In this document: one piece after another, positions 4,866 through 14,917 of the stretch | Position numbering within the stretch: position 1 is the stretch's first letter | Layout: each line of letters begins with the position of its first letter | Source: Pseudomonadota bacterium | Lineage (GTDB): Bacteria > Pseudomonadota > Gammaproteobacteria > Steroidobacterales > GCA-2729495 | Direction of reading: 5' to 3' | Assembly: GCA_963205295.1 (NCBI GenBank) | Contig: CAUJIY010000096.1 | Coordinates: 62,001-126,000, forward strand | Length of the DNA: 64,000 nucleotides | Notes under the pieces: model-generated | Database searches by the model: none | Seen by the model: only the letters and a program-made list of their open reading frames with translations | What the model was told of the DNA's origin: nothing | Program-made: the position numbers and the translations under genes

Positions 4866-6095
4866 CTACTGGATCGTCTTGCTGGCGATATTCGAGAGCG
4901 AGCTCTCGACGTTGTCGCTGGTGTACGCGCGCACGCCGAAGTACCAGGTGCCCGGGGAGAGGTTCTGGATCACGTAGCTGGTGATCCCGGCGCCGCTGAC
5001 GTTGACGACCTGGTTGAGAGCCGCCTGGCTCGTGCCGTAGTAGATCTTGTGGCCGGCAAGATTGGTCAGTGCCGAACCGTCGGTGCGCGTGGTCGGCGGG
5101 GTCCACGAGGCCGTCGCGGAACCGTTGGCCACCTGGTTCACGGTGATCGAGAACGCCGGCAACGATGCGCTCGCCGCATCGTCGCTCACCCTGATGACGA
5201 TATTGCTGGTGGTGCCGACGTTGCCGCTGCCGGGCGTGCCGCTCAGCCGGCCAGTACCGGTGTTGAAAGTCGCCCAGTCCGGCTTGTTGGTAATGCTGAA
5301 GGTCAGCGGGTCGCCATTGGCGTCCGCTGCCGTGGGCAGGAACTGATAGGCGCTGCCGACGGTCACCGATGTCGATGGGGTACCGGAGATGGTCGGTGCC
5401 GCATTCGCGGCGGTGACGGTGATCGAGAAGGGTCCCACGGACGCTGTGGCACTGCCGTCACTGACCGTAATGCGGATGTTTGCGTAGCTGCCCGCATTGC
5501 CACTGCCCGGTGTGCCACTGAGGCGCCCGGTGGAGGTATTGAAAGTCGCCCAGCCCGGCGGGTTGGTAATGCTGAAGGTGAGCGGATCGCCATTGGCATC
5601 GGCGGCCGTGGGCTGGAACAGGTAGGCGCTGCCGGCGGTGACCGCAGCCGGCGGCGTTCCGGAGATCGTCGGCGCGCTGTTCGATACGGTGATCGAGAAG
5701 TCCGGCAGGGTGTCGCTCGCACTACCGTCGCTGACCGCGATGCGGATGTTGGCGTGCGCCCCTACGTTCGCACGGGTCGGCGTGCCGCTCAAGCGCCCCG
5801 TGCTGGTGTTGAACGTCGCCCACCCGGGCCTGTTGGTGATGCTGAAGGTCAGGGCGTCACCGTCGGCATCCGTCGCACTGGGCTGGAAACTGTAGGCGCT
5901 GCCGGCAGCGATCGCACCGGAGGGCGAGCCGGAGATCACCGGTGCGCTGTTGTCCGGGCCAGGGTCGTCCGGAGCCCCGGCAACTTCACTGGTCGATCCG
6001 CCACAGGCGCCGAGCAGTGTGGTAGCCGCTGCCAGCGTGGCCAGCCGCAGGTAACCCGGCAGCGACGCGCGGGCAGAACAGGTATCCATGTGCAT
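4866..6095 (-). CDS. Putative Ig-like (He_PIG-type) repeat lipoprotein with a C-terminal FnIII domain
   Basis: Signal with lipobox-like LLGACGG. Three repeats of the type 'PTISGTP..VTAGSAYLFQPTAADANGDPLTFSITNPPGWATFNTSTGRLSGTP', then an FnIII-like C-terminus (KIYYGTSQAALNQVVNVSGAG...). GAGGA precedes the ATG. Confidence 0.8.
   Translation of the reverse strand: MHMDTCSARASLPGYLRLATLAAATTLLGACGGSTSEVAGAPDDPGPDNSAPVISGSPSGAIAAGSAYSFQPSATDADGDALTFSITNRPGWATFNTSTGRLSGTPTRANVGAHANIRIAVSDGSASDTLPDFSITVSNSAPTISGTPPAAVTAGSAYLFQPTAADANGDPLTFSITNPPGWATFNTSTGRLSGTPGSGNAGSYANIRITVSDGSATASVGPFSITVTAANAAPTISGTPSTSVTVGSAYQFLPTAADANGDPLTFSITNKPDWATFNTGTGRLSGTPGSGNVGTTSNIVIRVSDDAASASLPAFSITVNQVANGSATASWTPPTTRTDGSALTNLAGHKIYYGTSQAALNQVVNVSGAGITSYVIQNLSPGTWYFGVRAYTSDNVESSLSNIASKTIQ
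5130..5935 (-). repeat. Three tandem intragenic repeats (about 270-280 bp) encoding Ig-like domains
   Basis: Recurring segments such as 'gctgaaggtcagcgggtcgccattggcgtccgctgccgtggg' and 'ccggtggaggtattgaaagtcgccca'. Confidence 0.8.
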
Positions 6096-6254
6096 AGCAT
6101 CCTCGTCCCAACCGGGAGCATTCCTTGTCTCGCGATCTGGCACCGTTCCCAGCGGTAACGAGGCGCGCCCATACTGGACGCGTCCCAATGACGAGAAGGG
6201 AGAATGCTACGAAGCCAGCTTTACCTGCGCGACCGCAGTCCCTGCGGTCCGGCT

Positions 6255-6350
6255 GACCTTCGGCAACCCCGCTGTCATTAGGTCAATACCCTAAAGACCG
6301 GTGGCTTTGCGTCCCCGCCTCGCGACGGGTTTGCCCATTTGACGAATGTT
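6255..6350 (-). ncRNA. Cyclic di-GMP-I (GEMM) riboswitch aptamer
   Basis: Minus-strand sequence ATTCGTCAAATGGGCAAACCCGTCGCGAGGCGGGGACGCAAAGCCACCGGTCTTTAGGGTATTGACCTAATGACAGCGGGGTTGCCGAAGG contains the conserved GGGCAAACC, a P2 stem with GNRA loop (GCGA), GGGACGCAAAGCC, a P3 stem (GGTC/GACC) and GACAGCGGGGTTGCCGAAGG. Confidence 0.93.
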
Positions 6351-6531
6351 GCTAGTACACCGTACGGCGGTGCGTTTCGCAACCTCGGGCAGCGTGCGTA
6401 ATTTACCTAATCTTCGGTCAGCGCTCACAATTTTTGATATTCAGTCATATGCTGCACCGCAGCCTCAACAGCACAACTGGTAACAGCTTTCTGCGGTTCA
6501 ATACACAGACGTCTGATCCGGCAGGACTTAC

Positions 6532-12583: not shown

Positions 12584-14917
12584 TCAGTGAACGGCGACGG
12601 CGACCGCACCGGGTTCGCCGATCCGATAGGGCCGATCGACAAAATGGCCCTGGATGTAGTCGACCCCCATCTCCCGCAGGACATCGAAATCGGCCTGCAC
12701 CTCGACCTGCTCGGCCACGACCTTGAAGCCGACGGTTTTCGCCAGCCGCGTGATCGCCGCGACGACCTGCCCGTTGACGGCATCCGACTTCAGGTTGCGG
12801 GTGTAGGCGCCGTCGATCTTGAGATAGTCGATCGCCAGTCCGCGCAGGCTGGCAAGCGCACCGACGCCGCTGCCGAAGTCGTCGAGCCCGAACTGGCAGC
12901 CCATGCCGTGCAGCACACTGGCAAAGCGCTCGGCACGCTCGACGTCGGCCATGAGGGCGTTCTCGCTGACTTCGAAGCACACCTGCGCCGGCGCCACCTG
13001 GCTCTGGTCGAGGCACTCGACCACGAACTCGAGGAAATCGTCCTCGCCCAGGCTCTGCCCCGACAGATTGATGGTGCAGCTGCGGCCTTCCGGCAGGCGG
13101 ATCGTGCCCTGCCCGATGGCACCGAGCGTGGTGCGCACCACCCAGCGATCGAGGCTGCCCATGAGGTGGTAGCGCTCGGCGGCCTGCAGGAAACTCGCCG
13201 GCTGCACCAGCTTGCCCTGATCGTCGATCAGACGCAGAAACACCTCGAGCGCCGGTCCCTGACCCTGGCGGCCAGCCACCGCGAGGATAGGCTGCACGAA
13301 CAGGTCGAGACGATCTTCCTTCAGTGCGGCCTGCAGCTGCCGCAGCCAGTAGATCTCGCCACGCTGGCGCGCCGCGACTTCGTCCCGCGCGGAGTACACG
13401 TGGACCCGTCCCCGCCCCTCCTGCTTGGCGACGTAACAGGCGGAATCGGCAGCACCGAGGATGTCCTCGATCGTGGTGCTGTCGCGGTCGATCTCGACCA
13501 TGCCGATACTGACGCCGATGGAAAACACCTTGTCCTGCCACACGAAGCGGTGGTCACGCACCGCGGTGCAGATGTCGTCGGCGATCTGGCGCGCCTTGTC
13601 GAGCGGACAGCCGAGCAGCAGTACGCCGAACTCGTCGCCGCCGAGCCGCGCCACCGCGTCGGACTCACGCACCTTCTCGCGGATCAGCCCGGCAACGCTG
13701 CGCAGCAGGCTGTCACCGGCAATGTGCCCGCAGGTGTCGTTAACCGGCTTGAAGCGGTCGAGGTCCAGGTAACAGAGCACGTGGCTGACGTTGTGCTCGC
13801 GCACCGATTGCAGCGCCTCATCGAGGCGGCGCTCGAACTCGCGGCGATTGACGAGGCCGGTCAGCGCATCGTGCGTGGCCTGATAGCTCATGCGCTTGGT
13901 CAGGCCGCGGATCTCCGAGACGTCGTGCATGATGACGACCGCCCCGGCAAGGACATCCCCCGGCCCCCGGATCGGCGAGGCGGTCAGCTCGATCGACAGC
14001 TCCCTGCCGCCCGCCTGCGACAGCAGCATCGCCCGCCGGCCCATGTTGACGCGGCGACGATCGGTCAGGCAGCGCTGGATCGGATCGCCGAGGTCGCGCC
14101 GGTCGGTCTCATCGATCAGCCTGGCGACGTCGCCCATGCGCTTGCCGATCGCCTGCTCACGGCCGATGCCGGTCAGCTTTTCGGCAGCGGCGTTCATGTA
14201 ATCGATCACGCCGTCCTGATCCGCCGTGATGACCCCTTCGCCGATCGATTCGAGCGTGATCTGCGCCTGCTGCTTGCCGCGGCCGAGCGTGCTCTCGATA
14301 TCCTTGCGGTAGCTGATGTCGCGCGCGATCGTGAGGATCGCCCGCTGCCCACGGTAGTCGATGATTGCGCCGCTCACCTCGGCCCACAGGCCGGACTCCT
14401 GACCGTTGACGAGCTGCACCTCCATGCGCTCCGGGAGGATTTCTCCGGCGAGACGCCGGGTGACCGCATTGCGGGTCATCGCCCGGTAAGCCGAGCGGAC
14501 CATGTCGGTCACGGGGCGGCCGATGAGGGTCTCCGGCGCGGCACCGAGGAGCTCGGCTGCGGCGCGATTGGCAAAGATGATGCGCTCGCGGTGCACCAGC
14601 ACCGGCTCGGGCATGGTGTTGGCGAGGTCGGCAAACAGCGTCTCGCGCTCGCGCACCTGACGGTCGCGCGCCTGCAGCGTCTCGAACAGGCGGTTGATGG
14701 TGGCGCCCAGCCCGGCGAGCTCGGCCGAATCGCGGGGATAGTCGAGCCGGGTGTTGAAGGCGCCACCATCCGCGGCCGCAGATACATCCTTGTGCAGCGT
14801 GTCGATGCGCCCGGCCTGGCGACGTAGCGCCAGCCAGAGCACCAGCGAGATCCCGGCCAGCGCCGCGCAGCCGAGCGCAAGCGAACCGATGAGCCAGAAC
14901 TGGGTCGTGGCCGTCAC
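12584..14917 (-). CDS. Membrane-anchored PAS-PAS-GGDEF-EAL protein (intact GGDEF, degenerate EAL)
   Basis: N-terminal TM, two PAS-like regions, ARLGGDEFGVLL, EAL-type domain with ALEVFLRL and GLDDFGSG. GTG start at 14917. Confidence 0.93.
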   Translation of the reverse strand: MTATTQFWLIGSLALGCAALAGISLVLWLALRRQAGRIDTLHKDVSAAADGGAFNTRLDYPRDSAELAGLGATINRLFETLQARDRQVRERETLFADLANTMPEPVLVHRERIIFANRAAAELLGAAPETLIGRPVTDMVRSAYRAMTRNAVTRRLAGEILPERMEVQLVNGQESGLWAEVSGAIIDYRGQRAILTIARDISYRKDIESTLGRGKQQAQITLESIGEGVITADQDGVIDYMNAAAEKLTGIGREQAIGKRMGDVARLIDETDRRDLGDPIQRCLTDRRRVNMGRRAMLLSQAGGRELSIELTASPIRGPGDVLAGAVVIMHDVSEIRGLTKRMSYQATHDALTGLVNRREFERRLDEALQSVREHNVSHVLCYLDLDRFKPVNDTCGHIAGDSLLRSVAGLIREKVRESDAVARLGGDEFGVLLLGCPLDKARQIADDICTAVRDHRFVWQDKVFSIGVSIGMVEIDRDSTTIEDILGAADSACYVAKQEGRGRVHVYSARDEVAARQRGEIYWLRQLQAALKEDRLDLFVQPILAVAGRQGQGPALEVFLRLIDDQGKLVQPASFLQAAERYHLMGSLDRWVVRTTLGAIGQGTIRLPEGRSCTINLSGQSLGEDDFLEFVVECLDQSQVAPAQVCFEVSENALMADVERAERFASVLHGMGCQFGLDDFGSGVGALASLRGLAIDYLKIDGAYTRNLKSDAVNGQVVAAITRLAKTVGFKVVAEQVEVQADFDVLREMGVDYIQGHFVDRPYRIGEPGAVAVAVH

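Follow-up and report, generated by a model that had tools for sequence, protein, structure and literature searches.

A predicted c-di-GMP class I riboswitch precedes a He_PIG/FnIII lipoprotein gene, a pairing that recurs among related Gammaproteobacteria

Judging by its sequence, an element on the minus strand of the window (the whole stretch of 64,000 nucleotides of DNA analysed here) is very probably a riboswitch of c-di-GMP class I, placed in the 5' leader of a gene for a predicted surface lipoprotein. The pairing of the riboswitch with He_PIG/FnIII genes recurs across many related Gammaproteobacteria and is not a one-off. The riboswitch is genuine but ordinary, and the window copy alone amounts to one further c-di-GMP-I riboswitch; the conserved pairing hands the He_PIG/FnIII surface lipoprotein family, so far unstudied, a testable regulator. 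The principal features are:

6258 to 6345, minus strand: predicted c-di-GMP-I (GEMM-I) riboswitch aptamer, matched by RF01051, RF03167 and our own model R1
4866 to 6095, minus strand: gene for a 409-aa lipoprotein, from Pfam matches and the conserved family alignment A1
6095 to 6107, minus strand: Shine-Dalgarno region GACGAGGAUGCUA, read from the sequence, with GAGG at 6104-6101, through the first base of the start codon

Scanning the 64 kb with cmscan returned a single riboswitch match, to RF03167 (c-di-GMP-I-GGC), at 6344-6258 on the minus strand, scoring 71.1 bits (cut-off 59, E-value 7.6e-15 over that length). This family is the one reported because cmscan keeps one family per clan, that with the best E-value. 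The same site scored 81.7 bits with RF01051 (gathering cut-off 35, E-value 1.7e-16 for the genome) in the covariance check that the initial annotation had called for, and 85.0 bits with R1, which had the window copy in its training set. The match is far beyond chance, and the riboswitch annotated at 6255-6350 on this strand had been correctly placed, its extent now being 6345-6258. Its elements are GGGCAAACC, a P2 helix (CCCGUC-GCGA-GGCGGG), GGGACGCAAAGCC, a P3 helix (GGUC/GACA) and AGCGGGGUUGCC. In an alignment of 43 aptamers, 16 of the 20 helix pairs showed compensatory changes, so that P2 and P3 are supported by covariation, and the window aptamer keeps all helices and all contact bases intact. 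The initial annotation had described all core elements as present; the motifs that it listed are indeed all in the sequence, including the GNRA-capped P2, but the P3 tetraloop receptor is missing, which it overlooked along with four further copies in the genome.

The product of the downstream gene carries a signal peptide with the lipobox LGAC, three He_PIG Ig-like domains (PF05345, 119 bits over three stretches) and a C-terminal FnIII domain (PF00041, 26.3 bits), in agreement with its annotation as an Ig-like/FnIII lipoprotein. Its ATG (6095-6093) lies 163 nt past the aptamer on the same strand, with GAGG 5 nt before it; the aptamer is therefore in the sense orientation relative to the gene, as had been claimed. 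The window also encodes, at 12584-14917 on the minus strand and about 6.5 kb from the riboswitch, a PAS-GGDEF-EAL protein of 777 aa that could be a c-di-GMP turnover enzyme.

Ligand choice and aptamer subtype can be read from the following positions, given with their Vc2 equivalents (numbering from PMC11218506, PMC4744006 and PMC9262584):

6335, minus strand: G equivalent to Vc2 G20 (G for c-di-GMP, A for cGAMP), RF01051 position 11
6308, minus strand: A equivalent to Vc2 A47, RF01051 position 38, invariant in alignment A2
6263, minus strand: C equivalent to Vc2 C92, RF01051 position 83, invariant in alignment A2
6320 to 6323, minus strand: P2 tetraloop GCGA, read from the sequence, in an aptamer whose P3 tetraloop receptor is lost

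The discriminating base sits just before P2, at the J1/2-P2 boundary (PMC6274999). It had been annotated as G, and alignment gave the same base and specified the site as 6335, the second G of GGGC, immediately 5' of the basal P2 pair. Because this base is G, c-di-GMP and not cGAMP is the predicted ligand. Of 105 copies in this genome and its relatives, 103, among them the window copy, have G at this site. The remaining two aptamers, L076 (G010:C281:7144-7227) and L090 (G013:C186:3568-3652), have the A that is the cGAMP signature, and L076 precedes a gene whose small product carries three CxxCH haem motifs. The cGAMP riboswitches of Geobacter likewise stand before genes for proteins with CxxCH haem motifs.

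The loop GCGA is of the GNRA type but is not GAAA, and the P3 tetraloop receptor CUAA/UAUG is absent from the window copy, where CUUUAGG/CCUAAUG replaces CUAAGG/CCUAUG. Within the same 105 copies, the 5' receptor motif was found in 65 of 76 GAAA aptamers compared with one of 21 aptamers with another GNRA loop (Fisher 5.6e-12), 20 of the latter thus missing the receptor. The receptor is typical of the GAAA type and not required, and a receptor-less GYRA type of c-di-GMP-I has been described (PMC11218506). Since loop and receptor have changed together, the window copy fits this subtype, and by every testable sequence feature it appears as a member of the c-di-GMP-I family, of the receptor-less kind.

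We analysed the pairing of riboswitch and gene in 79 loci from named genomes, chosen by protein similarity alone and coming mostly from Steroidobacteraceae, Woeseia-type and other Gammaproteobacteria. A model from 43 aptamers identified 67 aptamers in these loci, all 67 on the coding strand, compared with about one copy expected in this amount of sequence at some 5 copies per 3 Mb. Among genes of the named genomes with an intact 5' end and a strong FnIII tail (at least 100 bits), 54 of 66 had the riboswitch just upstream, versus two of 14 genes with a weak tail and one of 12 for He_PIG proteins lacking the tail. As riboswitch-linked genes supplied the FnIII profile, the contrast between strong and weak tails is biased; the locus and strand results are unaffected. 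He_PIG repeats alone are not tied to the riboswitch: one relative has 19 matches to the lipoprotein, most of them within large repeat proteins. That so many genomes keep the pairing strengthens the proposal of the initial annotation that the lipoprotein is a target of c-di-GMP, which we infer from sequence. In nine loci (L142, L144, L148, L158, L160, L161, L165, L167 and L214), from Steroidobacter-like and other genomes, tandem c-di-GMP-I aptamers less than 300 nt apart stand before He_PIG-type genes.

The MAG (assembly of 2.97 Mb, 94% complete) contains five riboswitch copies, which precede an M23 peptidase gene near lpxC (L001), the window lipoprotein, a second He_PIG/FnIII gene (L003), pilM (L004) and a PEP-CTERM-like gene (L005). 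The last copy (C15:3859-3971) is degenerate, with 49 bits, CC/GG replacing the usual GC/GC junction pair, a GCGA loop and no receptor. The placements at pilM and in the M23 peptidase/lpxC region are conserved through the family. In the relatives, the genes after the riboswitch most often encode He_PIG/FnIII proteins (19), PilM (19), M23 peptidases (18), redoxins (11) and FAD-type oxidases (11), these counts being approximate as they come from single-linkage clusters. The riboswitch regulon is common to about 40 genomes of one family and to Steroidobacter-type and Woeseia-type Gammaproteobacteria, and it places the lipoprotein family beside type IV pili (pilM).

Around the aptamer, the leader offers these candidate elements:

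6377 to 6382, minus strand: possible -35 element TTGCGA, weak, read from the sequence, 17 nt before TGTACT
6354 to 6359, minus strand: possible -10 element TGTACT, weak, read from the sequence, with 4 of 6 consensus bases
6190 to 6209, minus strand: 5' strand UAGCAUUCUCCCUUCUCGUC of a helix covering the ribosome-binding site and start codon, from the minimum free energy fold

From the placement of the -10 element, transcription would begin close to the aptamer's first base. TTGC boxes resembling that of the window were seen by eye before the aptamers of L043, L048, L054 and L058; a promoter consensus scan did not report the candidate pair of the window. In the minimum free energy fold of the leader, 6209-6190 pairs with 6107-6095, and the unpaired probability of the start region was 0.06 in the free leader and 0.12 when the aptamer was imposed, lower than in any other of the 18 leaders folded. 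Comparing bound with free forms, accessibility of the start site was unchanged in 14 of the 18 leaders, up in one and down in three, hence without a consistent difference. As the start site of the window copy is shut with and without the aptamer in equilibrium folding, these folds demonstrate no switch mechanism; moreover, the leader fold had a z-score of only -1.34, and GC-rich leaders fold strongly regardless. A hairpin of CGAAGGUCAGC (6262-6252) with GCUGGCUUCG (6219-6210), an idea by eye for a competitor of P1, was rejected because it is absent from the minimum free energy fold. A conserved expression platform was not evident among the relatives, whose leaders are too divergent between aptamer and gene. 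No intrinsic terminator was identified in the window leader, nor, by a simple test, in any of 105 leaders, which by elimination points to translational or Rho-dependent control of the lipoprotein.

Two readings would deny the window element its role as a c-di-GMP sensor. It could be a decayed or ligand-blind aptamer that lost switching together with the tetraloop receptor, as the absent receptor, the lack of a switching fold and the loss of binding upon a loop mutation in Cd1 (PMC9262584) might suggest; however, contact bases and helices are all intact, and the joint change of loop and receptor, here and in 20 of the 21 other-GNRA copies, has the look of a compensated subtype (PMC11218506), which makes decay quite improbable. 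An aptamer of the GEMM-Ib type sensing 3',3'-cGAMP would belong to the same RNA family, and the discriminating base contributes to selectivity without being an absolute filter (PMC9262584). Yet GEMM-Ib needs A at the equivalent of Vc2 G20, whereas the window copy and nearly all its relatives have G, and a gene for a full GGDEF-EAL protein lies nearby; we therefore rejected cGAMP specificity and regard it as highly improbable.

For a c-di-GMP sensor, we propose that ligand binding would refold the leader and thereby alter either the initiation of lipoprotein translation or Rho-dependent termination. Adhesion-type proteins usually increase with c-di-GMP. Because of this tendency, exemplified by Vc1-gbpA, and because the start site is shut by default, we lean slightly towards an ON switch. 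The opposite direction, in which c-di-GMP lowers lipoprotein expression, for instance by holding the start region closed or by uncovering a Rho site, is a serious though lesser prospect. The data themselves show neither direction, and the linkers that follow the aptamer have on average a slight excess of C over control upstream regions (median skew 0.05-0.08 versus 0.00, p ~0.002-0.004), but the window's own linker contains no C-rich bubble of the Rho type, and expression of adhesion-type targets, gbpA among them, goes up with c-di-GMP (PMC4744006).

The ON switch favoured for the window copy may have a counterpart of opposite sign in one branch of the family. In eight loci (L003, L049, L053, L105, L219, L221, L224 and L226), a lipoprotein-like frame is open from an AUG within the aptamer; L003, the paralog in the same genome, lies at L003:1501-1600 (C94:3286-3371). 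The embedded AUG is located in the P3 receptor strand and encodes M-T/I-A-G-L-P followed by a signal peptide, gap-free between loci. An AAGGGG-like sequence precedes it by 6 to 8 nt, and similar stretches also occur in some aptamers without this arrangement. Seven of the eight loci have a GUG at the end of the aptamer, L049 being the one without. Differences in these loci numbered 72, 30 and 56 at codon positions 1, 2 and 3, which is not clear-cut, and 14 open frames of at least 150 codons compared with 13 in another frame. An exact pattern for the embedded start had no matches in 274 genomes of the class, and more cases came from nearer relatives. An embedded start is plausible from these sequences. 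That translation in this branch starts inside or against the aptamer, where bound c-di-GMP and the ribosome would be in direct competition (an OFF switch), is an idea to which we give a little less than even credence; if true, the expression platform of the L003-type branch would be the aptamer itself. The window copy does not have this arrangement.

A literature search, with most subscription journals outside its scope, yielded no paper joining Steroidobacter, c-di-GMP and riboswitches, and the nearest comparisons come from other groups. With the RF01051 members Vc2, Vc1 and Cd1, the window copy shares the core, the contact bases G20, A47 and C92 and the helices, and it differs from them in the GCGA loop and the missing P3 tetraloop receptor. 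The P3 of the RF03167 model is likewise receptor-less, although the raw score of the window copy is lower with this model than with RF01051. Vc1 of Vibrio cholerae is an ON switch before gbpA, established in cells, whereas the window copy is known from sequence alone; in both, a c-di-GMP-I aptamer opens a long leader before the gene, which in Vibrio encodes a secreted attachment protein (PMC4744006) unrelated to the window lipoprotein. In Geobacter sulfurreducens, from another phylum, a GEMM riboswitch is located upstream of the FnIII protein KN400_1971 (PMC13194489), which we liken to the window protein by domain alone. Hence, a GEMM element before a gene for an FnIII-domain surface protein is already on record, and this type of target is not new.
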